Source: Lysobacter sp. K5869 (GTDB taxonomy: Bacteria; Pseudomonadota; Gammaproteobacteria; Xanthomonadales; Xanthomonadaceae). Taken from it: a stretch of DNA of 64,000 bases. This document shows, piece by piece, positions 6,594 through 48,644 of the stretch. The DNA is taken from positions 3,263,001 through 3,327,000 of the forward strand of contig NZ_CP072597.1 of NCBI RefSeq assembly GCF_018847975.1, given 5' to 3'. The position numbers were made by a program, and so were the translations under genes. Each line of letters opens with the position of its first letter. Position 1 is the first letter of the stretch. Below the pieces are notes generated by a model. The model saw nothing but the letters and a program-made list of their open reading frames with translations. It searched no databases and was not told the DNA's origin.

Positions 6594-6625
6594 ATCCGGA
6601 TGCGACGTAGCGTCCCGCGCTACGT

Positions 6626-6880
6626 GTAGGAGCGGCGTAAGCCGCGACCAACCGAAGCGACTAACGCAAGCGAACCATCAGAAACCGAGAACCCCGGCGA
6701 CGCTTTCGCAGAATCAACCCTCATCCATCCGGGCTTCGGGGCCTGCGTGGTATTCAAGCGAATCATCAGAAGCCGAGAACTTCGGCGACGTTTTCGCAGG
6801 ATCAAGGCTCATCCATCCGGGCTTCGGAGCCCGCATGGTATTCAATCGCTTCGTTGGGTCGCGGCTCACGCCGCTCCTAC
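6626..6880. repeat. Composite repeat: inverted REP pair enclosing an 88-bp tandem repeat
   Basis: The 327-base gap between the convergent TraB/GumN and ferredoxin genes is almost filled by one element. Its ends are near-identical inverted copies of about 35 bases: GTAGGAGCGGCGTAAGCCGC at 6626-6645 with its continuation to 6660, and the reverse complement at 6846-6880. Inside lie two direct copies of an 88-base unit (6670-6757 and 6758-6845) sharing the segment CTCATCCATCCGGGCTTCGG. No coding sequence is evident. Confidence 0.85.
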
Positions 6881-6920
6881 AGGTAGATCGCCGGCAACGC
6901 GTTGAACGACGCGAGCGCGC

Positions 6921-7331
6921 CTAAGCGGCGGGCGCGACCAACACGATGCAATCCACCGGACACGCCGGCACGCACAGCTCGCAGCCGGTGCACAGCGGTT
7001 CGATCACCGTGTGCATGTGCTTGGCCGCGCCGACGATGGCGTCGACCGGGCAGGCCTGGATGCACTTGGTGCAGCCGATGCAATCGGCTTCGACGATCAG
7101 CGCCACCGGCGGTGCCGGCAGATGGCGGCCGCGTTCGCGGTCGAACGGTTTGGCCGCCACGCCCAACAACTTCGCCAACGCGCGCGCGCCGGCGTCGCCG
7201 CCCGGCGGGCAGCGATCCACGTCGGCTTCGCCGCGCGCCATCGCCTCCGCGTAGGGTCGGCAACCGGCGTAGCCGCACTGGCCGCATTGGGTTTGCGGCA
7301 GCAGGCGGTCTAGGCGTTCGGTTAGATCCAT
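6921..7331 (-). CDS. rsxB: RnfB/RsxB-like ferredoxin, stand-alone
   Basis: Iron-sulfur protein of 136 residues. Residues 1-45 form an Fe-S domain with C16, C19, C24 and C41 (CGQCGYAGC...DRC), as in the RnfB subunit. Two 4Fe-4S ferredoxin motifs follow: [12 protein letters not shown] and [12 protein letters not shown]. No other Rnf/Rsx subunit genes are nearby, and the N-terminal membrane helix of true RnfB is absent, so it is probably a soluble electron carrier. In xanthomonads this short RnfB-like gene commonly sits beside metG, as here. The partner redox enzyme cannot be told from the sequence. Confidence 0.88.
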
Positions 7332-7431
7332 AAGAGCAGGAGTTAGCGAATAGGCGTTAGAAGTTAGCGAAAATCTAGAAGCGGCTGCTTGCTCTCGCTA
7401 TCTCCTAACTCCTAACCGCTACCTTCCAGCC

Positions 7432-9519: not shown

Positions 9520-9649
9520 GGCGGGGGTGGCCGTGGGTGGTCGTGAATTATGGCATGGGCCGCCGCGGCGCTCGGCCGTGGCGGAGTGGGTGGAACGCGT
9601 GGAAAGGCCTTCGGGCCTTGCCTGTGCAGAACGAATCGGTGGGGCGAAA

Positions 9650-9890
9650 GCGAAGAAAGCGGGGGTGAGGCCGGAATCGGCTGGGCCCGCGAGCGAGAAA
9701 CCGGGGCATCGCCGAATCGGGGAGCTTCGAAAGCGGGAGACCGGGCCAAGGCCGCAATCGCCCGGCCCTAAAATCAAGAAACCCGGCCAAGGCCGCAAGC
9801 GCCCGGCCCTAAAAGCAAGAAACCCGGCCAAGGCCGGAATCGCCCGAGCCTAAAAGCAAGAAACCCGGCCAAGGCCGGGTTTCCGTAAAC
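9650..9890. repeat. 41-bp tandem repeats derived from a terminator
   Basis: The 389-base gap between metG and the DUF2147 gene has no gene but holds a decaying tandem array. CAAGAAACCCGGCCAAGGCC occurs at 9775, 9816 and 9857, an exact 41-base period, with more diverged copies back to about 9650. On the minus strand every unit reads CCGGGTTTCTTG followed by a T-rich segment, so the array looks like repeated copies of the terminator that closes the DUF2147 gene. Confidence 0.75.
9858..9884 (-). terminator. Rho-independent terminator of the DUF2147 gene
   Basis: An 11-bp perfect hairpin (GAAACCCGGCC, 9860-9870; loop AA; GGCCGGGTTTC, 9873-9883) lies 25 bases after the minus-strand stop and is followed on that strand by CTTGCTTTTA. 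Confidence 0.8.
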
Positions 9891-9908
9891 GCACGGACCG
9901 GCCGGGAC

Positions 9909-10346
9909 TTATTCGTGACGCATCCAGGTCTGGCTGCGGCCGATCAGCGAGAAGCCGATGAAACCGCGCACTTCCAGCTTCTTGCCGGCGTCCTGCGGGG
10001 TCACCTTGACCGAATAGATCTTGCCGGTGGCCGGGTCGAGGATCTTGCCGCCTTCCCAGGTGTCGCCGCTCTTGCGGATGCCCCACAGGATGACCATGCC
10101 CTTGACCGGCTTGCCCTTGCGCTCGCCGTCGCACTTGTCGCACAGCGGGTTGGGACCGCGCTCGGACTGCAGCACTTCGTTGACCCGGCCGGCGAGGCTG
10201 CCGTCCTTGGCCTCGTAGATCTCGACCACCGACTTGGGCTTGTTGGTCTTGTCGTCGATCGTGGTCCAGGTGCCGAGCGGCGAAACCTGGGCGAACGCCG
10301 CCGCCGGCAGCGCGAGCAGCAGCAGGGCGAGCAATTGTTTACGCAT
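9909..10346 (-). CDS. DUF2147 domain-containing exported protein
   Basis: Small 145-residue protein with a clear signal peptide (about 1-19, ending AAAFAQ). The mature part matches the DUF2147 family: an early LGTWTTIDDKTNKPKSVVEI, a GxVNEVL segment, a CDKC pair (possible disulfide), and a central GMVILWGIRKSGDTWEGG. The family is predicted to be a small periplasmic beta-barrel, lipocalin-like; its function is not established. A strong GGGAGGGG ribosome site precedes the ATG. It lies downstream of the TonB receptor on the same strand but a terminator separates them. Confidence 0.88.
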   Translation of the reverse strand: MRKQLLALLLLALPAAAFAQVSPLGTWTTIDDKTNKPKSVVEIYEAKDGSLAGRVNEVLQSERGPNPLCDKCDGERKGKPVKGMVILWGIRKSGDTWEGGKILDPATGKIYSVKVTPQDAGKKLEVRGFIGFSLIGRSQTWMRHE

Positions 10347-10516
10347 GTATCCCCTCCCAGAGACGTTAGCGTGGTGGCCGCGCGCCGTGGGCCGGCGCGG
10401 CGGGACGAGGTTCTTTATACCGCATCCGCACAGGTATGGAAGCCGCGCGGCGCGCGTTCAGCCTGTGCGCGGCCGAACCGGCGCGGCGGCCGCGAACGCG
10501 CCGCCGCCGGAAAACG

Positions 10517-10542
10517 AAAAGCCCGGCGTGCGCCGGGCTTTT
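10517..10542 (-). terminator. Terminator of the TonB-receptor gene
   Basis: A 12-bp perfect stem (AAAAGCCCGGCG, 10517-10528; loop TG; CGCCGGGCTTTT, 10531-10542) lies 34 bases past the receptor stop. A/T ends on both arms make it potentially bidirectional. Confidence 0.88.
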
Positions 10543-10576
10543 CGCTGCAACGTTCGAACGATGGACTGCGCGGACC

Positions 10577-13570
<2,994 letters not shown>

Positions 13571-14052
13571 GAATGAATCCCCTAGCTGAGAAGTGAAGCG
13601 CGAAAGCGGACTTTCTGGGTCGATCTACGTGTTTTGGTTGCCTTCCTGGGCATTAACGATCCCTTTACGAAACTGAACTTAACACGACGATAACGTTCGC
13701 TTTCTGGCCGGGGCGGCCCATTCACTTTGCGCCGTCTGTTGTTTCAACTGATTGAATTTAATGGTTTGTTAGTCTATAGGCGGCGGTCGAACGCAAAATC
13801 GCGTTGCGCGGCTTTATGTAATCAATCTGTAGCTAAGTCACAGATAGCAATGCGGCGGAATCCGAATTGGCAATTTTAAGTTGTTTTATTCAGCTTTCGC
13901 GACGGGCCTGTCCAGGCGCCGGCCGCGGGCCCCGCCGCGAGCGGGCGGACGCGATTGCGCGCAAGCCTTAACATGTAGACCGGCCGCCACGCGGCATCCC
14001 TGTATCGAGTCCCCATGCGCCTACCTACCCCGCGCCCAGCCGGATCGCCGGC
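13571..14052. promoter_or_regulatory. AT-rich divergent intergenic region
   Basis: This 482-base gap separates the minus-strand TonB receptor from plus-strand mrp. It is strikingly poorer in GC than its neighbours between about 13,660 and 13,880 (for example GAATTTAATGGTTTGTTAG). No gene is seen. It must hold promoters for both genes, but I cannot place a convincing -35/-10 pair. A clear AGGGGA ribosome site lies just ahead of the receptor ATG. Confidence 0.55.
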
Positions 14053-15117
14053 ATGAGCGAGCAACTGCAGTCTTCGATCGCGGCGCTGCCGCTGCCCGAC
14101 ACCGACCTGAGCCTGGCCGACAGCGGCGCGCGCGTGCGCGCCGGCGCGGCCGAGGGCCGGGTCGCGGTGTCCATCACCGCCGGTTTCGCCCTGGACGGCA
14201 TGCGCGCCGGGCTGGAGACGGCCATCGCCGCCGCGCTGGCGCCGCAAGGGCTGGCGCTGGCCAGCCTGGAACTGATCTCGCGCATCGTCTCGCACGCGGT
14301 CCAGCCCAAGCTGTCGCCGCTGGCGAACGTGCGCAATCTGATCGCGGTCGGTTCCGGCAAGGGCGGGGTCGGCAAGTCGACCACCGCGGTCAATCTGGCC
14401 CTCGCGTTGGCGGGCGACGGCGCCCGCGTCGGCGTGCTCGACGCCGACATCTACGGCCCCAGCGTACCGACCATGCTCGGCGCCCACGGCAAGCCCGACA
14501 GCCCGGACGGCAAGCACATCGAGCCGCTGCGCGCGCACGGCATCGAGGCGATGTCGATCGGCCCGCTGGTCGAACAGGACACGCCGATGATCTGGCGCGG
14601 CCCGATGGCGACCTCGGCGCTGACCACGCTGCTCAACGACACCCAGTGGGGCGAACTGGATTACCTGATCGTCGATCTGCCGCCCGGCACCGGCGACATT
14701 CAGCTGACCCTGGCGCAGAAGATTCCGGTCGCCGGCGCGGTCATCGTGACCACGCCGCAGGACGTGGCCACGCTCGACGCGCGCAAGGCGCTGCGCATGT
14801 TCGAGAAGGTCGAAGTGCCGGTGCTGGGCCTGATCGAGAACATGGCCGTGCACGTGTGCTCGAACTGCGGCCACGCCGAGCATCTGTTCGGCGAAGGCGG
14901 CGGCGCGCGCATGGCCGCGCAATACGCGGTGCCGCTGCTCGGCAGCCTGCCGCTGGAGATCGCGATCCGCGAGCAGGGCGACGCCGGCGTGCCGCTGGTC
15001 GCGGCCCAGCCCGATTCGGCGGCGGCGCGCGCCTACCGCGGCGCGGCGCGCCGGCTGGCCGCGGAACTGGCGCGGCGGCCGCGGGTGGCGCCGTCGATTT
15101 CCGCCTCGCTGGTGTAA
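14053..15117 (+). CDS. mrp: Mrp/ApbC family iron-sulfur cluster carrier ATPase
   Basis: P-loop ATPase that carries Fe-S clusters to target proteins. The 354-residue protein has an N-terminal region corresponding to the MIP18-like domain of Mrp, then an ATPase domain with the deviant Walker [10 protein letters not shown] at 101-109, the switch segment [17 protein letters not shown] and a CSNC pair (C269 and C272) for the bridging cluster between monomers. It stands upstream of dcd, an order seen in related genomes. In many proteobacteria mrp is adjacent to metG; here a receptor and a DUF2147 gene intervene. Confidence 0.95.
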
Positions 15118-33553: not shown

Positions 33554-35425
33554 TTACTTCGCGCTTTTGGCCTCGCCGGACGGCGGCGCCGGCGGCGTGG
33601 TCGGCGCGCCCGCATCCGTCGGCGCGGCCGGCGCGGTGGTCGGCGCGCCGGCGGCCGGCGCGGTCCACAGCTTGGTCTCGGCCTTGCCGCCCATCATCTG
33701 CGCGCGCACCAGCGGGATCGGCGGGCCGCCGAAGCTCAGGAACTGGTCGTGGAAAGCCTTCCAGCCGGCGCGGCCGCCGTGGCCGGCGGTCCAGTCCTCG
33801 CGCAGTTGCATGATCATCAGCTTGCCCAGCGTGTAGTTGAGGTAAGCCGGATCGTAGGTGCCGCGCGCGGCTTGCTGGCGCGCGTTGCCCGGGTCCTGGA
33901 AGGCCTTGTCCTTGAACATCTGCTCGGACTGGGCCACGGTCATGCCGCCGGTGTGCAGGCCGATCGCCGAGAGGTAGCGCACATCGCGCAGCAGCGCGTT
34001 GGTGAGCTGGCCGATGTGGATTTCCGGGGTGGCGCCGTCGAGGCCGGCGTCGAACATCATCTCTTCGGTGTAGTGCGCCCAGCCTTCGGTGAAGGCGTAG
34101 CCGGTGAAGAGTTGGGCGAACTTCCACTGCGAGCGGTTGGCGTGCAGGAAGTGCAGGAAGTGGCCCGGCCAGACTTCGTGCGCGGAGGTGAACAGCAGGT
34201 CGGCCTTGCCCGGCACGTACGCGTCCTGCTCGGCCTTGGGCCACTTCGGATCGGGCGGGGCGATGTAGTAGACCGAGGGCAGGTTCTTCTCGTACGGCCC
34301 CGGAATTTCGATGTAGGCGAAGTTGCTGCGGTTGAACGGCGGCGCTTCTTCGACCTTGGCTTGCTCGGTGCCCGGGATCGAGACCAGATCCTTGTCGACC
34401 ACGAACTGGCGCAGCCCGGCCAGCTGCGCGCGCGCGCCTTCGACCGCGCCGCCGACCGGCTTGTCGGCGCCGGCCTTGTCCACGCAAGCCTGCAGGCTCA
34501 GCCCCTTGGCGTAGGCCTCGCAGGCGCTCTTGAGCGCGGCGAGGTTGCGCGCGAGGTCGGCTTCGCCGGCGGCTTTGAGCTGATCCAGCGGCAGGTCCAC
34601 GCCCTCGGTGGCCTTGAGCATGCGCGCGTACTTGTCCGCGCCCAGGGCGAAGTCCTGAGTCGCTTGCGGCTTCTGCTGGCTGAGGTAATCGGCCAGCCCC
34701 TGCATGGCTTCGATGGCCTTGGCGTTGGAGGCGGCGAAGCGCTTCTGCAGCGCTTCGTCCTTCACTTCGGCGAAGGCCTTGGGCACGTCGCTCTTGAAGA
34801 ACGCGGCCATGCCGCCGAAGCCCATCACGCCCAGGTCGATGTAGGTCGCCGGCAGCGGGCCCTTGAGGTTGGCGCGGATCTGCTCGGCGGCCTTGGGCAG
34901 CGCTTCTTGGTAGCTGGCGAACGCGGCCATGCGCTGTTCCAGCGGCGCGTAGGGGCGGGTCAGGTACATGCTCGGCGAGACGTCGCCGAGATAGAACGCC
35001 GGGTTCTTGGTGGCGAAGCCGGAGTCTTCCAGCCAGAACAGCTGGCCGTCGATGGTCGCCAGCACGTAGTCGCGCTGGAAGCGCTGAGCGGCGTCGAGGC
35101 GGTCGTCGCCGAACGCGGCCACCGCGTCGCGCTGCTGGTGCAGCCACTGGATGTTGCGCTGCAGCGTCTCGGGCGCGTAATCCGGCAGCTTGCCGTCGAA
35201 CTCGTGCTTGCCGGCGCTGGCGGCGGCGACCGGGTTGCGCTCGAAGTAGCCCTGCAGGAAGGCGTCGACCGCGGCGTTCCATTCCGCGCCGGCGGCCGGT
35301 TTGGCCGCGGCCGGGGCGGCGGCGTCGCCGGTGGCGGCGGGCGGGGCGGTTTCGGATTTGCAGCCGGCGGCGAGGGCGGCGGCGACACAGGCGGACAGGG
35401 ACAGCAGACGCAGGCTACGGCGCAT
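33554..35425 (-). CDS. DUF885 family zinc peptidase, lipoprotein
   Basis: Predicted zinc-dependent peptidase of 623 residues, exported and lipid-anchored. The ATG at 35425 is chosen because it directly begins MRRSLRLLSLSACVAAALAAGCKSE, a lipoprotein signal with lipobox LAAGC. The body matches DUF885, with the metal motif H416-EVWPG-H422 (HExxxGH) and a downstream Glu in YAFTEGWAHYTEEM. The C-terminus is a low-complexity Ala/Pro/Thr tail. Some family members act as carboxypeptidases or dipeptidases; the substrate here is unknown. It lies 136 bases downstream of the kinase operon on the same strand. Confidence 0.9.
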   Translation of the reverse strand: MRRSLRLLSLSACVAAALAAGCKSETAPPAATGDAAAPAAAKPAAGAEWNAAVDAFLQGYFERNPVAAASAGKHEFDGKLPDYAPETLQRNIQWLHQQRDAVAAFGDDRLDAAQRFQRDYVLATIDGQLFWLEDSGFATKNPAFYLGDVSPSMYLTRPYAPLEQRMAAFASYQEALPKAAEQIRANLKGPLPATYIDLGVMGFGGMAAFFKSDVPKAFAEVKDEALQKRFAASNAKAIEAMQGLADYLSQQKPQATQDFALGADKYARMLKATEGVDLPLDQLKAAGEADLARNLAALKSACEAYAKGLSLQACVDKAGADKPVGGAVEGARAQLAGLRQFVVDKDLVSIPGTEQAKVEEAPPFNRSNFAYIEIPGPYEKNLPSVYYIAPPDPKWPKAEQDAYVPGKADLLFTSAHEVWPGHFLHFLHANRSQWKFAQLFTGYAFTEGWAHYTEEMMFDAGLDGATPEIHIGQLTNALLRDVRYLSAIGLHTGGMTVAQSEQMFKDKAFQDPGNARQQAARGTYDPAYLNYTLGKLMIMQLREDWTAGHGGRAGWKAFHDQFLSFGGPPIPLVRAQMMGGKAETKLWTAPAAGAPTTAPAAPTDAGAPTTPPAPPSGEAKSAK

Positions 35426-35561
35426 TGCGGGGGTCTCCGGGTGGCCAGGGCGGACGCCGCGGTCGCGGCGTCGGCGGAGCGTTACGGCCGACCATCCTGT
35501 GCGCTCGGGCGGCGCTTGCACAGTGACTTTCGACATGTGCGCGGCAGGCGGCGCGGCCGCG

Positions 35562-38500
35562 TCAGGGGCGCGCGCGGGCGCCGCAGCGGCGCAGCTCGCG
35601 GTCCAGGCGCTGGCGGTCGCCGTCGCTGAGCAACGCCGGCATCGCCGCCGGCAGCCGCCGCTGGCGCGCGGCGTCGCGGAACGTGCGCGCGGCGGCGATC
35701 AGCTCGGGCTGGTGGTCGCGCGTGCGTTCGGCCAAGCGCAGCGCCTGCTCCAGCGACGCGTCCGCATCGGCCGGGCGGCAGCGGGCGAAGGCGAGCAGGC
35801 CGCGGTACATCAGCGCCGCGACGGCGCGGCCGCTGCGCTGGTGCTGATCGGTCAGCGCCCCGTCGCCGCGGCCGTCGGCGGCGAGGAAGGCGCGCTCGCG
35901 CTCGAGCAACTCGGCGAAGCCGCGCCCGGCCTCGTCGTAGCGGCCGCGGCGGAAGTCGAGCTTGGCGCGCTGGAAGCGCAGGTAATCGAAGCGGTAGTTG
36001 TCGGGCGGGAACACCGCGGCGAGCTCGCGTTGCCACTCGTCCAGGCGCGAGCCCAGTTCCGGCAGCGCGGCGTCGTCGCCGTAGTCGGACAAGCCGTCGA
36101 TCAGCAGGAAGCCCTCCAGGACGGTCGGCAGCCCCGCGCGGCGCCGGGCGTCGATGTTCCGGCGCAGCAGGGCGAAGCCTTCGGCGCGGTCGCGCCGCGC
36201 ATCGGCGTCGGGGCGGCGGATCAGGTCCTGGGCCAGGTTGAAGGTCGCCGACAGCCGCATCTCGCTCTCCGCCGGCATGGTCTTTTCCAGCGTCGCCGCG
36301 CCCTCGCGCATCAGCGCGCGGCGTTCGCGGCCGTCGCGCGCGAGCCGCGACGCGGCGGTCGACAAGGCGCTGGCATAGGCGGGGTTGTCGGCGCCGTAGG
36401 CCGCGCGGATCGAGGCCAGCGCGCGGCCGAGGTCGTAGCTGGGCTGATCGGGCGAATCGAACACGTCGGCGCGGATCATCGCGTAGGCGGTCTTGGGGTG
36501 CGATGCGCCGAGCGAGGCGATGCGCCGGTGCACCAGTTCGGCCGCCAGCGCCGGCGCCTCGGCGGCGCCGCGCAATTGCACCGCGCGCATGTAGCGCTCC
36601 AGCGCGTCGTCGGCCAGCACCGGGTTGAGCGGCCGCGCCAGCCGCATCGCCCGGCGCGCGTCGGCTTCGGCGCCGGCCGCGCGCCACAGGCGGCGCTGGA
36701 ATTCCGAGCGCAGGATCAGCGTCTGCGCCAGCAATTCCTCGTGGCTGCGGCCCAGGCGTTCGGCCTGCAGGACCAGATCGTCGCAGGTCGCCAGCGCTTG
36801 CGCGGTGCGGCCGAGGTTCCATTGCGCCTGCGCCAGTTCCGCGCCGAAGACGATGCGCGAGGCGCGCGCGGCCTCGTCGTCGCGTCCGTCGAGCGCGGCG
36901 ATGCGTTCGCCGGCCAGGCGTTCGGCCTGGGCCGAGCGCGCTTGCAGATTGAGCATCGACAGGCGTGTGGCGGCGACGAAACCGTCGTCGTCTTCGCGGT
37001 CGCCCAAGACCCGTTCGGCTTCCCCGGCCAGTCCCTCGGCGCGGCGGTAGTCGCCGATCACCGCGTAGCCGCGCGCCAGCGTCGCCAGGCTGCGCGCGCG
37101 CAACCCGGGTTGGTCGGCCAGCGGCATCGCCCGCAGCTCGCGTTCGGTGCGTTCCAGCAGCGCGCGCGAAGAAAACGGCACGCTGCCCAGGCCCGATTGG
37201 GTCGCGCTGCCGAGAATGCTGGCGAACAAGCGGCCGACGTTCTGCGCGGCGCGCGCTTCGCGCAGCGCGCGCTGGTGCTGCCACAGCACCGCCGCGCCGC
37301 CGGCCAGCGCCACCGCGAACAGCGCGGCGATCATCCAGCCCGCCGCCGGATGCCGCCGCCGCCACTTGCGCGCACGTTCGCGCCAGCCGCCGCGGCGCAC
37401 GCTCACCGGGCGGTGCTCGCGCCAGGCGCGCAGGTCGCGGGCGAATTCGGCGACGCTGGGATAGCGGTCCTGCGGCCGCGCCGCCACCGCCTTGAGCGCG
37501 ACCGCCGACAGATCGCCGGCGAGGACGCGCTGCAACGCGGGCACGTCGTCGAGCCCGCGGCCGCGGGCGAGCGCGCCGTCGGCGCCTTCGAGCAGGCGTT
37601 CCATCGGCTCCGGCGCGCCGGCCGCGGCGATCGGCACCAGTTCGCGCAGGCTGTGCAAGCGCGTCGGCCATTGCCCGCACAGCAGCCGGTAGCTGAGCAC
37701 GCCGAGCATGTAGAGATCGGTGGCCGGGCCGTGGGTGCCGTGCTGGCGCGCTTCCGGCGCGGCGTAGTCGGGCGTCACCGCCAGATGCGCGCTGGCGCCG
37801 TCCTCGCCGCCGAAGCGGGTGGAGATGCCGAAGTCGAGCAACTGCACCCGGCCTTCGGCGGTGACCAACAGGTTGGAGGGTTTGATATCGCGATGCAGCA
37901 CGCCCTGCGCGTGGGCGTAGGCGAGCGCGTCGCAGGCTTGCAGCAGCAGGTCCACGCGCGCGCCGACGCTCAGCCGTCGGCGCTCGCACCACGCGTCGAT
38001 GGGCTCGCCCTCGACCCGGCGCAGCGCGAACCACGGCCGTCCGTCCGCGTCGGTGCCGCCGGCGATGCCGGGATGGTCCAGGCGCGCGAGCAGGTTGCGT
38101 TCCTCGCGGAACGCCGCGGCCAGCTCCGGCGATTCCAGGCCGCTGCGGATGCATTTGATCGCCACGCGCTGCTGGAACTCGCCGTCGTCGCGGTGCGCCT
38201 CGTACACCGTGCCCATGCCGCCGCGGCCGAGAATGCGTTCGATCCGCCACGGCCCGAGCGCGCCGCCGACGCGCAGGTCGGCGCCGCCGTCTTCGTCGTC
38301 CTCGTCGCTTTCCGCGCCCTCGTCGCTTTTCGCGCCGTCGTTCGGCGCGGCGGCCGCGGCGCGCGGCTGGCGCTCGGCGACGATCTGCGCGGGCGAGCGG
38401 TCGAGCACGCCGGCGTCCTCGGCCGCGTCGGAGTCGAGCAGCGCGCGCAAGGCCGCGTGCAGCGGCGGATCGCTCGCCGCCAGCGCCGCCAGCCGGCGTT

Positions 38501-38570
38501 CGCGTTCCGGCGCCGGCAGGTCGGCGTAGTCGTCGAACAGGCGCAGGGCGCGGGCGAGCGCGTCGCTCAC
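35562..38570 (-). CDS. Membrane Ser/Thr protein kinase 1 of a tandem pair
   Basis: Hanks-type kinase of 1,002 residues. An N-terminal helical region (about 1-65) is followed by a very acidic insert (about 81-98) and the kinase domain (about 108-380): GRGGMGTVYEAH, K139, HRDIKPSN (HRD 226-228) and DFG 246-248, so it should be active. A basic juxtamembrane stretch and one transmembrane helix (WMIAALFAVALAGGAAVLW, about 404-422) lead to a C-terminal sensor region of about 570 residues made of helical, TPR-like repeats. It starts with GTG inside the stop of the upstream kinase (GTGA). Compared with its paralog it lacks four residues after HPGIA. Confidence 0.93.
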   Translation of the reverse strand: MSDALARALRLFDDYADLPAPERERRLAALAASDPPLHAALRALLDSDAAEDAGVLDRSPAQIVAERQPRAAAAAPNDGAKSDEGAESDEDDEDGGADLRVGGALGPWRIERILGRGGMGTVYEAHRDDGEFQQRVAIKCIRSGLESPELAAAFREERNLLARLDHPGIAGGTDADGRPWFALRRVEGEPIDAWCERRRLSVGARVDLLLQACDALAYAHAQGVLHRDIKPSNLLVTAEGRVQLLDFGISTRFGGEDGASAHLAVTPDYAAPEARQHGTHGPATDLYMLGVLSYRLLCGQWPTRLHSLRELVPIAAAGAPEPMERLLEGADGALARGRGLDDVPALQRVLAGDLSAVALKAVAARPQDRYPSVAEFARDLRAWREHRPVSVRRGGWRERARKWRRRHPAAGWMIAALFAVALAGGAAVLWQHQRALREARAAQNVGRLFASILGSATQSGLGSVPFSSRALLERTERELRAMPLADQPGLRARSLATLARGYAVIGDYRRAEGLAGEAERVLGDREDDDGFVAATRLSMLNLQARSAQAERLAGERIAALDGRDDEAARASRIVFGAELAQAQWNLGRTAQALATCDDLVLQAERLGRSHEELLAQTLILRSEFQRRLWRAAGAEADARRAMRLARPLNPVLADDALERYMRAVQLRGAAEAPALAAELVHRRIASLGASHPKTAYAMIRADVFDSPDQPSYDLGRALASIRAAYGADNPAYASALSTAASRLARDGRERRALMREGAATLEKTMPAESEMRLSATFNLAQDLIRRPDADARRDRAEGFALLRRNIDARRRAGLPTVLEGFLLIDGLSDYGDDAALPELGSRLDEWQRELAAVFPPDNYRFDYLRFQRAKLDFRRGRYDEAGRGFAELLERERAFLAADGRGDGALTDQHQRSGRAVAALMYRGLLAFARCRPADADASLEQALRLAERTRDHQPELIAAARTFRDAARQRRLPAAMPALLSDGDRQRLDRELRRCGARARP

Positions 38571-41557
38571 GCGCGCCGGCCCGCGGGCGCGGCCGCCGCG
38601 TGCGCCGCCGCGCCCGCGGGGCAGACGATCGGCGTGTCCTTGGCGTCGCCGCGCACGCCGGCCGGCCGCACGAACGGCGGCGAAGCCGGCAGCCGGCGGA
38701 CGCGCAGCGCGCGTTCGAGCGTGGCGATCTCCTCGCCGCGGGCCTTGCGATCCACCTCGGTCATGGTTTCGCGCGTGCGCTGCGCGCGCTGCAGGAATTC
38801 AGCGGCGTCGGCGAAGCGGCAGGTTTCCAAGGCATACGTCGCGCGGTACAGCAGCGCCTGGATCCCGAACAAATCCAAGCGATAGCGCGGCAGCCCGGCC
38901 AAGGGCGGCGCGGCGGCGACGTCGGCCAGGATCCGCGCGAAGATCCGGTCCGCGTCCGCGCGGCGTCCCTGGCGATAGCGCACGATGCCTTGGTGCAGGC
39001 TCAGGTCCAGCAGTTCGAGATCGCCGGGCGAGTAATAGCTCGGCGCGGCGCGCAGCGCGGCGTCGAGCGCGGCGTCGGCGATCGGCAGCTGCGCGTCGCG
39101 GCCGCGCTCGGACAGGATCAGGCCCAGCGACAGCCGGTCGGCGAACGCGGGCATGCCGGCGCGCTCGCGTTCGACGATGTTCTGCTGGTGCACCCGCACG
39201 CCCTCGTCGAACCCCGGCGGCGCGGCCGGCGTGCGCCGGCCCATCAGCACCTTGGCCAGATTGCTGCGCGCGTTGAACAGCATCGCGCTGTGCGGGCGGG
39301 CGCGGGCGAGCGTGGCCACCGCTTCGCGCTGCATGCGCAGTTCCTCGTCGCCGTCGCGCGCCGCGGTCCAGGCCAGCCGCGACAGCGCCAGCGCATACAC
39401 CGGATGGCCGCGGCCGTAGCCGGCTTCGATCTTGTCCAACGTCGCCAGCGCCGACTCGCGCGACACCAGCGGGAACTGGCTCAAGGCGACGAAGACTTCG
39501 GCCGCGCCGGTTTCCGGGTGGTCCGCGCCGAGGCCGCGGCGGCGCTCGTCGAGCAGGCGCTGGGCGTTGCCGGCGAAGTCGGGACTCAGGCGCATGCGCT
39601 GCACGTCGACCAGGCCTTCCAGCGCGTTGTCGGCGAGCCGGCGGTCGATCGGGCCGGCCAACGCGAGCGCGCGCTGGGCGTCGTCTTCCGCGCGCGCCAG
39701 CCGGCCCAGATCGCGGCGGAAGCCCGAGCGCAGGATCAGCGCGCGCGCGGCGATCGCGGCTTGGCCCGGGCCCAACGCCTGCGCGCGGCGGACCAGATCG
39801 TCGGCGCGCGCCAGCGCCGCGGCGGTGTCGCCCAGCGCCCATTGCGTGCGCGCCAGTTCCGCGCCGATGGCGATGCGCGCCGGCTCGAACGCGGGGCCTT
39901 CCTCGTCCAGTCGGCCCAGCCGCGCCTGTCCCATCGCCAGCGCTTCGCGGTGCCGGCCCTGGTAATTGAGCATCGCCATCTGCGTGCCGAACACGAAACC
40001 GTCTTCGTCGCGATCGCCGGCATCACCGGAGAGCCGGTGCGCTTCGTCGGCCAGCCGCGCGCCGTGGGTGTAATCGCCGATCTGGGCGAAGCCGTCGGCC
40101 AGCGTCGCCAGCGCGTGCGCGCGCAAGGCCGGTTGATCGGCCAGCGGCAGCGCGCGCAGTTCGCGCTCGGTGCGTTCGAGCAGCGCGCGCGAGGAAAAGC
40201 GCGCGCTGCCCAGGCCCGACAGCGTCGCCGTGCCGACGGTGGAGGCGAACAAGCGGCCGACCTGTCCGCCGGCTTCGGCTTCGCGCGCGGCTTGCCGGTG
40301 CTGCCACCACGCGCCGCCGGCGGCGGCGGCGGCGACCACGAACAGCGCCGCGCTCAAGCCGGCGGCCAAGGGATTGCGCCGCAGCCATTTGCGCGAACGC
40401 GACAGCCACGTGCCCGGACGCGCGCGCACCGGCCGGCCTTCGCGCCAGCGCCGCAACTCGTCGGCGAATTCGGCGACGCTGGCGTAGCGGTCCTGCGCGC
40501 GCGCGGCCACCGCTTTGAGCGCGATCGCCGACAGATCGCCGTGCAGCCGCCGCGCCAGCGCCTGCGCATCGGCGGCGCCGCGCAGATGCGCGGGCGCGTC
40601 GTCGGCGTCTTCCAGCAACTGCGCCATCGCCAGCGCGTCGCCGGAGTCGGCGCCGTGCAACAGCGGGCGCAGGCCGTGCAGCGGCGTCGGCCATTGCCCG
40701 CTGAGCAGGCGATAGGTCAGCACGCCCAGCGCGTACAGATCGGTGGCCGGGCCTTGCGCGCCGTGCAGGCGCGCTTCCGGCGCGGCGTATTGGGGCGTCA
40801 GCGCGGGCAGGTCGCCCTGGGCTTCGCGCAGCGGGCCGAGTTGGGCGGAAATGCCGAAGTCGAGCAATTGCGCGCGGCCGTCGGCGGCGACCAGCACATT
40901 CGACGGTTTGAGGTCGCGATGCAGCACGCCTTGCGCATGCGCGTAGGCGACCGCGTCGCAAACCTGCAGCAGCAAATCCACGCGCGCGGTGACGCCGAGC
41001 CGGCGCCGGTCGCACCACGCGTCGATGGGCTCGCCTTCGACGTAGCGCAGCGCGAACCAGGGCCGGCCGTCGCCGTCGACGCCGCCGTCGACCAGCGCGG
41101 CGATGCCGGGATGGTCGAGCCGCGCGAGCAGGTTGCGTTCCTCGCGCATCGCCGCGATCAGGCGCGGCGAATCGAGTTCGGCGCGCACGCATTTGAGCGC
41201 GATGCGTTGCTGGTATTGGCCGTCGTCGCGATGCGCCTCGTACACCGCGCCCATGCCGCCGCGGCCGATCAGGCGGTCGATGCGCCACGCGCCCAGGCGC
41301 GCGCCGACGCGCAGATCGGCGCACGGCGGCGCGGGCGCCGGTTCGGCGCGCGCATGCCGCTCGGCGAGAATCCGCGCGGGCGAGCGGTCGAGCACGCCGG
41401 CGTCGGGCTGGGCGTCGGCGTCGAGCAGCGCGCGCAGCGCGGCGTGCAGATCGGGGTCGGTGTCGGCCCACTGCGCGAGACGGCGTTCGCGTTCGGCGGG
41501 CGGCAGCTCGACGAGTTCGTCGAACAACTGCAGGGCGCGGGCGGAAATGGCGGTCAT
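38567..41557 (-). CDS. Membrane Ser/Thr protein kinase 2 of a tandem pair
   Basis: Hanks-type kinase of 996 residues and clear paralog of the next gene, sharing its layout along the whole length. N-terminal helical region (1-65), kinase domain about 90-360 with IGRGGMGAVYEAH, K122, HRDLKPSN (HRD 213-215) and DFG 233-235, one transmembrane helix (AALFVVAAAAAGGAWW), then a long helical TPR-like C-terminal domain beginning VGRLFASTVGTATLSGLGS. All catalytic residues are present. It lies 43 bases after the ECF sigma gene and its stop overlaps the next start by 4 bases, so sigma and both kinases form one operon. The C-terminal part is probably periplasmic and ligand-sensing. Confidence 0.93.
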   Translation of the reverse strand: MTAISARALQLFDELVELPPAERERRLAQWADTDPDLHAALRALLDADAQPDAGVLDRSPARILAERHARAEPAPAPPCADLRVGARLGAWRIDRLIGRGGMGAVYEAHRDDGQYQQRIALKCVRAELDSPRLIAAMREERNLLARLDHPGIAALVDGGVDGDGRPWFALRYVEGEPIDAWCDRRRLGVTARVDLLLQVCDAVAYAHAQGVLHRDLKPSNVLVAADGRAQLLDFGISAQLGPLREAQGDLPALTPQYAAPEARLHGAQGPATDLYALGVLTYRLLSGQWPTPLHGLRPLLHGADSGDALAMAQLLEDADDAPAHLRGAADAQALARRLHGDLSAIALKAVAARAQDRYASVAEFADELRRWREGRPVRARPGTWLSRSRKWLRRNPLAAGLSAALFVVAAAAAGGAWWQHRQAAREAEAGGQVGRLFASTVGTATLSGLGSARFSSRALLERTERELRALPLADQPALRAHALATLADGFAQIGDYTHGARLADEAHRLSGDAGDRDEDGFVFGTQMAMLNYQGRHREALAMGQARLGRLDEEGPAFEPARIAIGAELARTQWALGDTAAALARADDLVRRAQALGPGQAAIAARALILRSGFRRDLGRLARAEDDAQRALALAGPIDRRLADNALEGLVDVQRMRLSPDFAGNAQRLLDERRRGLGADHPETGAAEVFVALSQFPLVSRESALATLDKIEAGYGRGHPVYALALSRLAWTAARDGDEELRMQREAVATLARARPHSAMLFNARSNLAKVLMGRRTPAAPPGFDEGVRVHQQNIVERERAGMPAFADRLSLGLILSERGRDAQLPIADAALDAALRAAPSYYSPGDLELLDLSLHQGIVRYRQGRRADADRIFARILADVAAAPPLAGLPRYRLDLFGIQALLYRATYALETCRFADAAEFLQRAQRTRETMTEVDRKARGEEIATLERALRVRRLPASPPFVRPAGVRGDAKDTPIVCPAGAAAHAAAAPAGRRA

Positions 41558-41600: not shown

Positions 41601-42263
41601 TCAGGCGGCGTCGTCCTCGCCGTCCAGCTCCGGCCCGCCGCGCAAGTGCGCGGCGAGGAACGCGCGCGCCTTGCGCCAGTCGCGGCGGATGGTTCGGTCG
41701 GTCAGCCCCAGCACTTCGCCGATCTCGATATCGCTCATGCCGGCGAAGTAGCGCATCTCCACCAGTTGGGTGAGCCGCGGCTCGACCGCGCTGAGCGCTT
41801 CCAGCGCGCGGTCGATGGTCAGCAACTGATCCAGGTCCGGATCGTAGGAGGGTTCGTAATGCGGATCGGCGCGGTCGGCGAGGTAGCTTTCCTCGTACTT
41901 GAGCCGCTTGAGCCGGCGCACTTCGTCGAGCAGCGCGTAGCGCATCGCTTGCGACAGCACCGCGAGCAGGTGCTGGCGGTTGTTGAGGGTCAGCTTGTCC
42001 TGATTCAAGCGCAGCCAGGTGCGGTTGATCAGCGAGGTCGCCGAGCGCTTGCTGCCGCGGCGCCAGCGCCGGCGGATCTGCAGCGAAGCGGCTTCGTGCA
42101 GGTCTTTGTAGAGCAGGGTGTAGACGCGGTCCCAAGCGCCGGGCTGGCCGCTTTGGGCCGCGACGATGAGTTGGGTGACCGAGTCCAGCGTCGCTTGCGG
42201 AAACTCGAATTCGTCCGTTGCCGGTGGAGCGGTGGTATCGCGCGAGGGGCCTTCTTGAGTCAT
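41601..42263 (-). CDS. ECF sigma factor, kinase-linked (ECF43-like)
   Basis: RNA polymerase sigma factor of 220 residues from the Sigma70_ECF/TIGR02999 group. Region 2 spans about 25-110 and region 4 about 140-205, with the helix-turn-helix around MSDIEIGEVLGLTDRTIRRD. In region 2.2 most ECF sigmas have DAED before LVQETFLRL; here residues 74-83 read SATSLINRTW, so acidic positions are replaced by Ser/Thr and a Lys/Arg-rich stretch precedes them. No anti-sigma gene is present; instead two Ser/Thr kinases lie downstream in the same operon. In the Vibrio EcfP/PknT system such a sigma is activated by phosphorylation of the equivalent Thr; T76 is the candidate here. Confidence 0.92.
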   Translation of the reverse strand: MTQEGPSRDTTAPPATDEFEFPQATLDSVTQLIVAAQSGQPGAWDRVYTLLYKDLHEAASLQIRRRWRRGSKRSATSLINRTWLRLNQDKLTLNNRQHLLAVLSQAMRYALLDEVRRLKRLKYEESYLADRADPHYEPSYDPDLDQLLTIDRALEALSAVEPRLTQLVEMRYFAGMSDIEIGEVLGLTDRTIRRDWRKARAFLAAHLRGGPELDGEDDAA

Positions 42264-42629
42264 GTCCGGTTTAATTTCGGCTGGACGATGGGATTCTCGT
42301 TAGCACCGACTTCGCGGTTGGCGGTCGAGTCCGCAAAGAAATACGCCAATCGTGTGGATTTGTCGATAACGGTTTATCCGAAAAATTGAGACGGCGATAT
42401 TGCTTATCGTCATGTGGTAAGGATGCAATTGCCGGTTGGCATTTTTCTGGTGCTGCTATTTCGAAATTCCGCACATCGAAGCCACGCAGCGGCATGCACG
42501 CAGCGGCATTCTTATTGATTCGATACGCAAAAAATCCGCATCGGTTTCGATAGCGGAGTCGGCGGAGTTTCGATTGTTCGCGATAAACCGCGTTCGGCTT
42601 CGCCGTCGTCGGCGCGCGCGCGAGCGGCT
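42264..42629. promoter_or_regulatory. AT-rich upstream region of the sigma-kinase operon
   Basis: These 366 bases between the pxpC stop and the sigma start are clearly richer in A/T than the flanking genes and contain no convincing gene. A 14-base direct repeat, CACGCAGCGGCAT, occurs twice in tandem (42482-42495 and 42496-42509). The sigma-operon promoter should be here, read leftward, possibly with an autoregulated ECF-type site, but I cannot place -35 and -10 elements reliably. Confidence 0.45.
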
Positions 42630-43616
42630 TCAAGCCGCGCCGACGCGGTCGGCGATGGCCCAGCGCAAGCGCGCCAGTTCGGCCGCGGCCGCGACGCGCG
42701 CGGCGCGCGCCTCGTTTTCGTCGCAGGCGCGGAAGTACAACTTCGTATTGGGCCGGGCCTGCGCCAGCCGCGGCAGGTCGGCGGCGATGACGTGGCCCAG
42801 GCGCGGGTAGCCGCCGACGGTTTGCGCGTCGGCGAGCAGCACGATCGGACCGCCGTCGGCGGGCAGCTGGATGGTGCCCGGCGCGACCGGTTCGGACACG
42901 CGGCCGCCGGCCGCGGTGCCGGCATCGAGCGCGTCGCCGCTCAAGCGCAGGCCCTGGCGGTTGCTGGCCGCCTCGACCTTCCAGCCGCTGTCGCCGAAGC
43001 GCAGCGCGGTCTCGCTCAGGGCGGGAGCGCGGGTCGGTACGTAGCGGATCGGCGCGTGCGGGTCTTCGCCGAAGTCCGGATCGATCCACCAACCCGGTGC
43101 GCGCGGCGCGTCGATGCGTTCGGCGCGGCGCGGTCCCAGCGGCACGCGGTCGCCGGCGCGCAGCGCGCGGCCGTCCAGTCCGCCGAAGCCGCCGCGCAGG
43201 TCGGTGCCGCGGCTGCCCAGCACCGGCGCCACCGCGAGGCCGCCGGCCACCGCCAGCCACGCGCGCACGCCGGAGCGCATGCCGCCGATGGACAAGGTGC
43301 CGGCCGGCAGATCGAGCGGGCGCGCGGCGGGCAGCGGTTGGCCGTCGAAGCGCAGCTCGCAGGCCGCGCCGAGCAGCGCCACCCGCGCCGGCGCGCGCAG
43401 GCGCAGGGTCGGCCCGTGCAGGGCCAGTTCCAGCACCGCGGCGGCGGGCGGATTGCCGACCAGGGCGTTGGCGAGGATCGCGCAGCGCGGGTCGAGCGCA
43501 CCGCCGCGGCCGACGCCGAGGTGGCGCCAGCCGTCGCGGCCGAGGTCTTGCACGCAGCTCAGCGCGCCGGGCGCGAGCACGTCGATCCAGTCGTCCTGGC
43601 GCGGCGCGGACGTCAT
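42630..43616 (-). CDS. pxpC: 5-oxoprolinase subunit PxpC
   Basis: Carboxyltransferase-domain subunit (AHS2/KipA family) of the 5-oxoprolinase complex PxpABC. The ATG at 43616 overlaps the pxpB stop (ATGA), giving 328 residues, a usual length. Family features are LAPGALSCVQDLGRDGWRHL near the N-terminus, GALDPRCAILANALVGNP, SGVRAWLAVAGGLAVAPVLG with GSRGTDLRGGFGG, SNRQGLRLSG and VGGYPRLGHVIAADLPRL. It is the last gene of the dlh-hit-pxpB-pxpC chain. pxpA lies 22 kb further on the same strand. These proteins were long annotated as urea amidolyase-like or allophanate hydrolase subunits; 5-oxoproline is the better-supported substrate. Confidence 0.94.
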   Translation of the reverse strand: MTSAPRQDDWIDVLAPGALSCVQDLGRDGWRHLGVGRGGALDPRCAILANALVGNPPAAAVLELALHGPTLRLRAPARVALLGAACELRFDGQPLPAARPLDLPAGTLSIGGMRSGVRAWLAVAGGLAVAPVLGSRGTDLRGGFGGLDGRALRAGDRVPLGPRRAERIDAPRAPGWWIDPDFGEDPHAPIRYVPTRAPALSETALRFGDSGWKVEAASNRQGLRLSGDALDAGTAAGGRVSEPVAPGTIQLPADGGPIVLLADAQTVGGYPRLGHVIAADLPRLAQARPNTKLYFRACDENEARAARVAAAAELARLRWAIADRVGAA

Positions 43617-45679: not shown

Positions 45680-47050
45680 ATGTCCGCCAGCGCCCCGCTC
45701 AATCCCAAAGTCGGTTTCGTCAGCCTGGGCTGTCCCAAGGCCTTGGTCGATTCCGAACGCATCCTCACCCAGCTGCGGGTCGAGGGCTACGACATCGTCC
45801 AGAGCTACGACGACGCCGACGTGGTGGTGGTCAACACCTGCGGCTTCATCGATTCGGCCGTGACCGAGTCGCTGGACGCGATCGGCGAGGCCATCGCCGA
45901 GAACGGCAAGGTCATCGTCACCGGCTGCCTGGGCAAGCGTTCGGAACTGATCCGCGAAGCGCACCCGGACGTGCTGTCGATCAGCGGCCCGCAGGACTAC
46001 GGCAGCGTGATGAGCGCGGTGCACTCGGTGCTGCCGCCCAAGCACGATCCCTTCGTCGATCTGGTCCCGCGCCGCGACGACGGCATCGGCGTCAAGCTCA
46101 CGCCGAAGCACTACGCATATCTGAAGATTTCCGAAGGCTGCAATCACCGCTGCAGCTTCTGCATCATCCCCTCGATGCGCGGCGATCTGGTCTCGCGCCC
46201 GGTCGACGACGTGCTGCGCGAAGCCGAAAAACTCGCGATGGGCGGGGTCAAGGAACTGCTGGTGATCTCGCAGGACACCTCGGCCTACGGCGTGGACGTG
46301 AAGTACGCCGAGCGCCAGTGGCGCGGCAAGGCCTATCAGACCCGGATGAAGGCGCTGTGCGAAGGCCTGAGCGAGCTCGGCATCTGGACCCGCCTGCACT
46401 ACGTGTACCCGTATCCGCACGTCGACGACATTATTCCGCTGATGGCGGAGAACGGCGCCAACGGCATGCCCAAGCTGCTGCCGTACCTCGACATCCCGTT
46501 CCAGCACGCCAGCCCGCGCGTGCTCAAGCTGATGAAGCGCCCGGGCGCGGTCGACAAGACCCTCGAGCGCATCCAACGCTGGCGCTCGATCGCACCGGAC
46601 ATCGCGATCCGCAGCACCTTCATCGTCGGCTTCCCCGGCGAGACCGAGGCCGAGTTCGAGGAACTGCTGGACTTCCTCGACGAAGCCCAGCTCGACCGCG
46701 TCGGCGCGTTCGCCTATTCGCCGGTGGACGGCGCCCAGGCCAACGACCTGCCCGACCCGGTGGACGAAGAGGTCAAGCAAGAGCGTCTGGCGCGCTTCAT
46801 GGAGCGGCAGGCGGAGATCTCCGCGGCCAAGCTCGAAGCCAAGGTCGGAAGCCGGCAGCGTTGTCTGGTCGACGCCATCGACGGCGAACTGGCGATCGCG
46901 CGCTCGATGGCCGACGCGCCGGAGATCGACGGCCTGGTGCAGATCCAGAACGGCGAGAGCGCCGGTTTGCGCGTGGGGCAGTTCGTGGATGTCGAGATCA
47001 TGGGCAGCGACGAACACGATTTGTTCGGCGAGGCGGTCGAGAACGATTGA
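45680..47050 (+). CDS. rimO: Ribosomal protein S12 methylthiotransferase
   Basis: Radical-SAM enzyme that adds a methylthio group to an Asp of ribosomal protein S12. The 456-residue protein has the N-terminal UPF0004 domain with cluster ligands C18 (LGCPK), C54 (NTCGF) and C83 (TGCLG), a radical-SAM domain with C154-x3-C158-x2-C161 (CNHRCSFC), the [19 protein letters not shown] segment that separates RimO from MiaB, and a C-terminal TRAM domain (from about [20 protein letters not shown]). Complete. Repeat array downstream. Confidence 0.97.
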
Positions 47051-47096
47051 GCCGGCGCGCGCCGTCGGCTGCCGGCGCGACTCGCCTGGAGCGTGT

Positions 47097-47444
47097 GTAG
47101 GAGCGGCGTAAGCCGCGATCGCGCCGTATCCGCTCGCGCCGAAAGTTTCGTCGTAGCTGCGTTGCCGCGGTCGCGGCTCGCGCCGCTCCTACAGTCGTAC
47201 TACGAAACCAGCCGAAGCCCCTGTAGGAGCGGCGCAAGCCGCGATCGCGCCGTATCCGCTCGCGCCGAAAGTCTCGTCGTAGCTGCGTTGCCGCGGTCGC
47301 GGCTCGCGCCGCTCCTACAGTCGTACTACGAAACCAGCCGAAGCCCCTGTAGGAGCGGCGCAAGCCGCGACCGCGCCGTAGCCGCTCGCGCCGAAAGTTG
47401 CGTCGTAGCTGCGTTGCCGCGGTCGCGGCTTACGCCGCTCCTAC
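47097..47444. repeat. Three-unit 126-bp array of REP doublets
   Basis: The 406-base gap between rimO and the flavoprotein gene holds three tandem units with an exact 126-base period (GTAGGAGC starts at 47097, 47223 and 47349; the last unit is cut after its hairpin). Each unit is an inverted pair: GTAGGAGCGGCGYAAGCCGC and its reverse complement about 95 bases on, around a centre containing CGTCGTAGCTGCGTTGCC. Units are nearly identical, implying recent amplification. No gene is present. Confidence 0.92.
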
Positions 47445-47456
47445 AAGCGCTTCGGG

Positions 47457-48644
47457 TCAGACCGACAGTCCGGCGGCGTTGCCGGAGGCCCATGCCCACT
47501 GGAAGTTGTAGCCGCCGAGCCAGCCGGTCACGTCGAGCACTTCGCCAATGAAGTACAGGCCCGGCACGAGCTTGGATTGCATCGTGCTCGAGGACACGCC
47601 GTCGGTGTTCACCCCGCCCAAAGTGACCTCGGCGGTGCGGTAGCCTTCGGTCCCGCTCGCGACCAACGGCCACGACGACAGCGTCGCAGCCAGCTGCTTC
47701 AATTCCGGCAGGTTGTATTGCTTGACCGGCTTGTTGTGCAGCCAGTGCTCGCACAGACGTTGCGCGAAGCGCTTGGGCATCGCGTCGCCGAGCACGGTCT
47801 TGAGCTCCGCGGCGGGGCGCTCGCGCTGCTGTTGCTGCAGCCAGTCCAGTGCGTCGTGGCCGGGCAGCAGGTCCAGGCGCAGGTTGTCGCCGGGTTGCCA
47901 GTACGAGGAAATCTGCAGGATCGACGGGCCGCTGACGCCGCGGTGGGTGATCAGCAGTTGATTGCTGAACTCGCGACCGTTGCAACTCGCCGTCACCGGC
48001 AGCGACACGCCGCTGAGATCGGCCAGACGCTCTTGATGCTTGCCGCTCAGCGTCAGCGGCACCAAGCCGGCGCGCGTGGGCAGCAGTTCGTGGCCGAAGC
48101 GCTTGGCGACTTCGTAGCCGAAACCCGTCGCGCCCATGCTCGGAATCGACAGGCCGCCGCTGGCGATCACCAGCGACGGCGCGGCGAAGGCGCCGCGCGC
48201 GGTGTGCAGGCGGAAGTCGCCGTCGCCTTCGGCGTGGGCGATGCGTTCGATCGAACAGCCGGTCTCGATGCGCACGCCGGCGGCTTCGCATTCCTCCACC
48301 AGCATCTTCACGATCAGCTTGGACGAGATGTCGCAGAACAGCTGCCCGAGTTCCTTCTCGTGATAGGCGATGCGGTGTTTCTCGACCAGCGCGATGAAAT
48401 CCCACGGCGTGTAGCGCGCCAGCGCGGATTTGCAGAAGTGCGGGTTGGCCGAAAGATAGTTCGCCGGCGTCGCGCCGGTGTTGGTGAAATTGCAGCGGCC
48501 GCCGCCGGACATCAGGATTTTCTTGCCGACCTTGTTGGCGTGCTCGATCAGCAGCACGCGCCGGCCGCGGCGGCCGGCGGTCAGCGCGCACATCAGGCCG
48601 GCGGCGCCGCCGCCGACGATCAGCGCGTCGAAACGCTCGGCCAT
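47457..48644 (-). CDS. HI0933/YhiN family FAD-dependent oxidoreductase
   Basis: Flavoprotein of 395 residues with an N-terminal Rossmann FAD motif ALIVGGGAAGLMCALTAGRR, the family-typical KVGKKILMSGGGRCNFTNTG, SGGLSIPSMGATGFGYEVAK in the middle and a C-terminal FAD-binding end GLYFIGEVLDVTGWLGGYNF. This is the HI0933-like family, also called BaiN/YhiN; the reaction of most members is unknown, and the name BaiN from a gut bile-acid study should not be taken as function here. It follows yaeQ on the same strand with a single base between stop and start, so the two are co-transcribed. Confidence 0.93.
   Translation of the reverse strand: MAERFDALIVGGGAAGLMCALTAGRRGRRVLLIEHANKVGKKILMSGGGRCNFTNTGATPANYLSANPHFCKSALARYTPWDFIALVEKHRIAYHEKELGQLFCDISSKLIVKMLVEECEAAGVRIETGCSIERIAHAEGDGDFRLHTARGAFAAPSLVIASGGLSIPSMGATGFGYEVAKRFGHELLPTRAGLVPLTLSGKHQERLADLSGVSLPVTASCNGREFSNQLLITHRGVSGPSILQISSYWQPGDNLRLDLLPGHDALDWLQQQQRERPAAELKTVLGDAMPKRFAQRLCEHWLHNKPVKQYNLPELKQLAATLSSWPLVASGTEGYRTAEVTLGGVNTDGVSSSTMQSKLVPGLYFIGEVLDVTGWLGGYNFQWAWASGNAAGLSV

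Follow-up and report, generated by a model that had tools for sequence, protein, structure and literature searches.

How does an ECF sigma factor engage RNA polymerase when the acidic residues of its docking motif are missing, and what part do two kinase genes directly behind it play? The gene that raises this question lies in a 64,000-nucleotide stretch of Lysobacter sp. K5869 (contig NZ_CP072597.1, positions 3,263,001 to 3,327,000), referred to here as the window (Table 1). A preliminary description had placed the gene correctly at 41601..42263, where it runs on the minus strand from 42263 to 41601, and had predicted that the activity of its product is switched by phosphorylation. By homology to the ECF43 group of sigma factors, such a switch appears to be the best reading.

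Table 1. Features of the sigma factor locus and related genes (window coordinates unless a contig is named)
Feature	Position	Strand	Remarks
ECF-type sigma factor gene (PF07638/TIGR02999)	41601..42263	minus	ATG start, 220 aa
Region 2.2 motif, residues 74-83, SATSLINRTW	42015..42044	minus	coordinates calculated from the start codon
T76 codon of the sigma gene	42036-42038	minus	
R81 codon of the sigma gene	42021-42023	minus	
Kinase 1	38567..41557	minus	996 aa; Hanks-type kinase domain, one hydrophobic stretch (assigned as TM), C-half all helices
Kinase 2	35562..38570	minus	1002 aa, GTG start, overlaps kinase 1 end; catalytic residues intact
DUF885 protein gene	33554..35536	minus	next downstream; probably outside the system
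Carboxyltransferase subdomain A/B protein (CT_A_B) gene	42630..43613	minus	upstream; probably outside the system
Promoter-like element TCGACAA-N14-CGTA	42342..42366	minus	78 bp upstream of sigma ATG; kept in closest orthologues
Further TIGR02999 sigma genes, own genome	G000:C1 ~706165, 959817, 1423166, 2109827		L074, L075, L076, L073

The sigma product scored 149.3 bits against the TIGR02999 profile (curated cut-off, 126.15) and 102.6 bits against PF07638 (cut-off, 21.1), and with both curated cut-offs exceeded it belongs to these families. Its nearest named homologues came from Lysobacter, together with one record labeled Pseudomonas sp. CGJS7. In the predicted model, residues 75 to 84 were helical; the model gave no Foldseek match at an E value of 0.001 or below, and the VIA structure rows, which lay mostly over region 4, served as a sanity check only. 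The translation confirmed that residues 74 to 83 read SATSLINRTW. In a profile alignment with SigL (6dv9), which had a weak score (E, 8e-5), columns 74, 75, 76, and 77 fell on Q, A, E, and D, and columns 80 and 81 fell on Q and E. T76 thus sits at an acidic position, the E of "DAED," as had been proposed, and R81 lies on the E of "VQE." The statement that Ser and Thr replace the acids of the motif holds for the E-to-T and D-to-S exchanges, beside a Ser at position 74, but there is also an E-to-R exchange, so that more than Ser and Thr is involved. Judged from these alignments, R81 is the distinctive feature of the gene; it lay within the string quoted in the preliminary description and was passed over there without comment.

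At the T76 column, Thr occurred in 90 of 99 homologues (the rest had Ala in 4, Ser in 2, Val in 1, Gly in 1, and a gap in 1), in 79 of 80 named loci (Val in the other), and in all 27 aligned sigma rows from the genus and family (17 R81-type rows, including the window, and 10 others). The named loci were the best 80 among the matches listed, and they were retrieved with search patterns that did not contain the motif. Codon 76 at the 17 R81-type loci was ACC in 12, ACG in 4, and ACT in 1, so that Thr was fixed. Because Thr recurs at this column in all three samples and codon 76 varies silently, the Ser/Thr motif is not a product of chance. T76 is therefore kept among orthologues, and the idea that the Ser/Thr motif is a peculiarity of this gene has to be given up: on the evidence of the alignments, Thr at this column follows the family and not the window gene. 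A kinase match, on whichever strand, was present within the retrieved flanking sequence, at most 4 kb to each side, of 75 of the 80 named loci, and in 65 of the 80 a same-strand kinase started less than 700 nt after the sigma match.

According to the accessible text of two publications, ECF43 sigma factors have a QTTA consensus, with Thr in 88% of members, and a kinase neighbor is their hallmark (PMC13147305, PMC8999054). As far as sequence comparison goes, the conservation pattern of the T76 column is the one reported for ECF43. The window sigma also shares the traits of the group: the DAED of region 2.2 is lost, with Thr at the third position (SATS lies on QATE of the EcfK type and on QAED of SigL); two Hanks-type kinases follow directly downstream on the same strand, as the preliminary description had said; and no anti-sigma family was detected among the 11 ORFs scanned with Pfam between 31.6 and 45.5 kb, a scan that did not take in every small ORF, which agrees with the earlier view that an anti-sigma gene is lacking. 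Four more TIGR02999 sigma genes exceeded the cut-off in the same genome, each accompanied by a kinase ORF at its locus. L075 gave no sigma match in the local alignment, and hence three of these four paralogues were compared; like the window sigma, the three have Thr at the T76 column, but unlike it they keep Glu at the R81 position.

The system named earlier as the nearest known case was EcfP/PknT of Vibrio parahaemolyticus. For a comparison with EcfK, we searched 198 genomes of the family with the DNA of QATELVH extended by the opening two bases of a codon for Asp or Glu, and 7 genomes had a match. In four EcfK-type copies, residues 29, 33, 49, 51, 52, 55, 104, 106, 108, and 110 were Y, R, Q, T, E, H, T, T, S, and S; all ten are identical to the letters given for EcfK of Xanthomonas citri in the accessible part of its publication (PMC13147305), and we took the four copies as EcfK orthologues on that account. 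In two of the six QATELVHE genomes of one genus (L201 and L203), the EcfK-type sigma ORF was altered at its C terminus. The window sigma was about 31% identical to the EcfK type over 182 columns, with T76 aligned with T51, S77 with E52, and R81 with E56. Since T76 aligns with EcfK T51, it occupies the column of the EcfP phosphosite. In EcfP, as described in the accessible text of a review, DAED has become STTA, and the second Thr is phosphorylated (PMC8999054). EcfP, also an ECF43 member, therefore resembles the window sigma in the loss of DAED and in this column, by motif and by way of EcfK T51; it differs in its regulon, polymyxin resistance, and was compared by its published motif only. While the likeness of the motif column stands, EcfK/PknS, an ECF43 system as well, is the closer precedent by the available account (PMC13147305): there, too, the sigma gene adjoins that of a Hanks-type kinase, and both window kinases match the PknS structure best.

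The two systems are not the same, however. EcfK orthologues have the motif QATELVHE, in which two acids are kept, whereas the window sigma has SATSLINR; EcfK has a Thr/Ser cluster in its linker and PknS as its kinase, whereas the window sigma lacks the cluster at the aligned place and has two kinases. EcfK lies in a type VI secretion system (T6SS) cluster, unlike the window sigma, whose scanned neighbors with a Pfam match were DUF885 downstream and CT_A_B, CT_C_D, HIT, and DLH upstream. The T6SS was dismissed as an output, as no match to the VipB sheath gene (PF05943) was found in the whole genome, which is 99.99% complete. Elsewhere in the window, at 46998-47551, the ORF list contained, in the interval between two genes, a translation with repeats of the CRSGASRDRAVSARAES type.

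In the accessible account of EcfK, the T51A variant alone is still functional, and phosphorylation of T51 or of a linker Thr (T106) is said to suffice (PMC13147305). To say that such a sigma is active only after phosphorylation of the motif Thr is thus too strong. The T51A result also speaks for a different reading, in which the kinases and the sigma cooperate but T76 is not decisive: the switch would be in the linker, as at EcfK T106, or in an unlisted partner, and T76 would be kept as a plain Thr for folding or core contact. We regard this as quite improbable, for the EcfK linker segment TLTISLSD aligns with ADRADPHY of the window sigma, which has no Ser/Thr (in this loose loop alignment T106 falls on R131 and S108 on D133), and the family retains T76 along with kinases. 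S126 and S139 flank the segment, and a second switch may exist in the window sigma linker.

Both kinases had 9eed, the structure of PknS, as their best PDB sequence match (E, 5e-53 for kinase 1 and 2e-42 for kinase 2), and 9eed also ranked first in a Foldseek search with the kinase 1 model. PknS is described in the available text as a transmembrane Hanks-type kinase with a periplasmic part rich in TPRs (PMC13147305). Lys122, Glu140, Asp215, Asn220, and Asp233 (kinase 1 numbering) were present in both window kinases. The predicted model of kinase 1 (mean pLDDT of 79, low around residues 381 to 460) consists of a kinase domain, a long helix at 396 to 446 spanning the hydrophobic segment that a simple pattern had picked out, and helices from 457 to 952 in the style of a solenoid. 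The C-half is presumably periplasmic.

We next consider R81. Among 98 scored homologues (P0099, with a gap at the motif, was dropped from the 99), positions 74, 76, 77, and 81 held no acid in 22, one in 44, and two in 32. The 22 acid-free homologues were exactly those with Arg81; all of them had S74, T76, and S77, and 19 had R73. Position 81 was Asp or Glu in the other 76, and in the named loci (the best 80 among the matches listed) it was Glu in 76, Asp in 1, Arg in 2, and Lys in 1. In a 75-row maximum-likelihood tree, built after the motif columns had been taken out, R81 was a single change, and the R81 rows formed one side of a branch with an SH-aLRT value of 95. This tree, made by a quick method without bootstrap and with several long branches among the non-R81 rows, left out P0093, P0099, P0100, and the homologues numbered above P0060, and included 15 added locus rows. 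At the 17 R81-type loci (14 genomes), amino acids 73, 74, 76, 77, and 81 were fixed, while codons 73, 76, 77, and 81 varied silently; the codon rows were picked by matching the motif as a regular expression, and the same rows were recovered by alignment. On the sequence record, a Lysobacter lineage has lost every acid of the polymerase-docking motif, with one of them reversed in charge.

Such a loss might mean that the sigma is decaying or inert and no longer binds the core, as all motif acids are gone in the 22 R81 homologues. This is hardly credible: the motif is kept at 17 of 17 R81-type loci despite silent codon variation, the TIGR02999 score lies above its cut-off, and the upstream element described below is conserved at the closest loci. 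The single rpoC found in the genome had the stretches YRRVINRNNR and RNEKRMLQE unchanged. By E. coli numbering, the beta-prime residues that the EcfK model names presumably lie in these stretches, and a compensating beta-prime change for R81 was therefore rejected.

A refinement of the phosphorylation switch, which does not exclude it, is that phosphate on T76 alone is insufficient, since R81 puts a positive charge where the last docking acid would be. S77, S74, or both would then be phosphorylated too, R81 would form a pair with the added phosphate or else with a Glu of beta-prime, and the docking geometry would be unlike that of EcfP. We consider this possible but on balance doubtful. All 22 R81 homologues share S74, T76, S77, and R81, against Asp/Glu81 in the other 76; R81 is one change on the tree; S77 and R81 stand at i and i+4 on the predicted helix 75-84; and the RpoC stretches are unchanged. 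The single origin, on the other hand, makes this co-occurrence one event, without statistical force. Moreover, the contacts published for EcfK are Y29, R33, Q49, E52, and H55, and the accessible text of the model does not name E56, the equivalent of R81 (PMC13147305), which makes the effect of R81 on binding uncertain: it may be repulsive, neutral, or engaged in pairing, either with a phosphate or with a Glu of beta-prime.

The kinase pair itself shows an uneven divergence. Kinases 1 and 2 of the window are 70% identical in the kinase domain and 40% identical in the C-half. A second kinase-like ORF was present at 11 of the 17 R81-type loci and a single kinase at the other 6, a tally in which the contig of L063 ends about 5 kb past the first kinase. 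Since 6 of 17 R81 loci have one kinase, we rejected a joint origin of R81 and the two kinases. Eight of the 11 second copies keep the catalytic residues (L053 was judged on an N-terminal piece); several are gone from those of L059 and L060, and the L062 copy has His in place of the HRD Asp. The altered genes lie at 9847-11190 (L059), 6743-7948 (L060), and 6622-9576 (L062). The L059 and L060 copies are short and without a C-half, and from their sequences are possibly soluble pseudokinases. In L053, a one-contig genome, each kinase gene is broken into two ORFs (8291-14259), through either sequencing error or real frameshifts, and at L068 (2863-6600) an E81-type sigma gene has its kinase in the opposite, convergent orientation.

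In three genomes (L056, L057, and L058), the two kinase domains of the pair were 90, 91, and 95% identical, against 41, 42, and 41% for the C-halves. Third-base identity at shared fourfold codons was 0.87 to 0.98 over residues 101 to 400 in these pairs and 0.38 to 0.71 beyond residue 500; two orthologue controls, with 0.81 to 0.93 over 101 to 400 and 0.74 to 0.98 beyond 500, had no such drop. The silent-site contrast therefore marks gene conversion of the catalytic domains, with the C-halves diverging freely. The contrast was weaker in the window pair, where silent identity was 0.67 to 0.83 against 0.52 to 0.75. A kinase-domain tree, in which the L053 kinases were entered as N-terminal pieces only, did not support one shared duplication, a picture that gene conversion can also give.

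Upstream of the sigma gene, TCGACAA-N7-YGNTTRRCGTA was found about 47 to 79 bp before the start in 8 of the 8 closest loci. This element has 14 invariant columns in the 8 rows, the best of all 25-nt windows ending before the ATG (mean, 2.5). The sequence CGTA is a usual type of ECF -10 element. A looser pattern, TCGACAR-N10-TTRRCGTA, was exact at 12 of the 17 R81 loci (the window and L052 to L062), at none of L063 to L067, and at none of the 10 non-R81 loci; it was also exact at L090. In each of 8 genomes, a relaxed pattern had one exact site, always upstream of the sigma gene. With up to two mismatches, the element gave 6 sites in the own genome (one of them exact) versus 10 for the reversed control pattern, and in the 8 genomes one-mismatch sites numbered 28 in total, versus 38 for the control at up to one mismatch; no target beyond the sigma operon was predicted from the element in the own genome or in the 8 genomes. 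The one-mismatch, AT-rich sites at L180 and L195 were rejected as targets, as each has a palindrome inside and precedes a small gene of the XRE type. This palindrome, TACGTTTAACGTA, is located around 1501-1525 before the small XRE-type HTH gene in both genomes and is a possible autoregulatory operator. For the sigma gene, autoregulation through the upstream element would be the natural reading of the sequence.

Together, our analysis makes it likely that the locus encodes an ECF43-type sigma factor under the control of the adjoining receptor kinases, with phosphorylation of T76 restoring charge and core binding. The direct basis for this phosphorylation switch consists of the motif, its alignment, its conservation, the gene order, the intact kinase residues, and the conserved upstream site. 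From these we infer phosphorylation, the loss and gain of core binding, the membrane topology, two inputs on one sigma, and autoregulation. In the unphosphorylated sigma, region 2.2 would lack the acids for the beta-prime clamp and would bind core RNA polymerase poorly. Either membrane kinase, once triggered, would phosphorylate T76, and possibly S77 and S74 too. The phosphate on T76 would bring a negative charge back to the E position of "DAED," allowing holoenzyme formation and transcription of targets, which probably include the sigma's own operon, read from the conserved TCGACAA-N14-CGTA site. That the window sigma works like EcfK and EcfP is the strongest claim that we would hold. The phosphorylation switch predicted in the preliminary description is thus upheld by homology, through the ECF43 phosphosite column, the two intact PknS-like kinases, and the conserved T76, but nothing in it is special to this gene. 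We put little confidence in a bolder version, in which an acid-null, charge-reversed ECF43 sigma would be fully off without phosphate, its switch multi-site or clasped by Arg, and the two receptor kinases, their catalytic domains kept alike by gene conversion while the sensors diverge, would form a two-input OR gate, with the second kinase turning into a pseudokinase regulator in some lineages.

A literature search on TIGR02999 or on E407 found no publication. A full-text search combining Lysobacter, ECF sigma, kinase, and phosphorylation, whose corpus left most subscription papers outside, returned one paper, on T6SS, and the accessible part of that paper does not describe this system. The mechanism of a kinase-switched sigma has already been published, and the core prediction is not new. 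A kinase-switched ECF sigma as such is ordinary; what is new in this variant is that Arg81 is fixed and that kinases occur in pairs. The R81 variant is a natural test, with the motif acids removed, one of them reversed, and the polymerase stretches that presumably face them the same. R81E and swaps at T76 and S77 would reveal how much negative charge the sigma-core interface requires, and a tandem of kinases, alike in their homogenized catalytic domains but divergent in their sensor halves, would let one sigma read two signals in a simple way.
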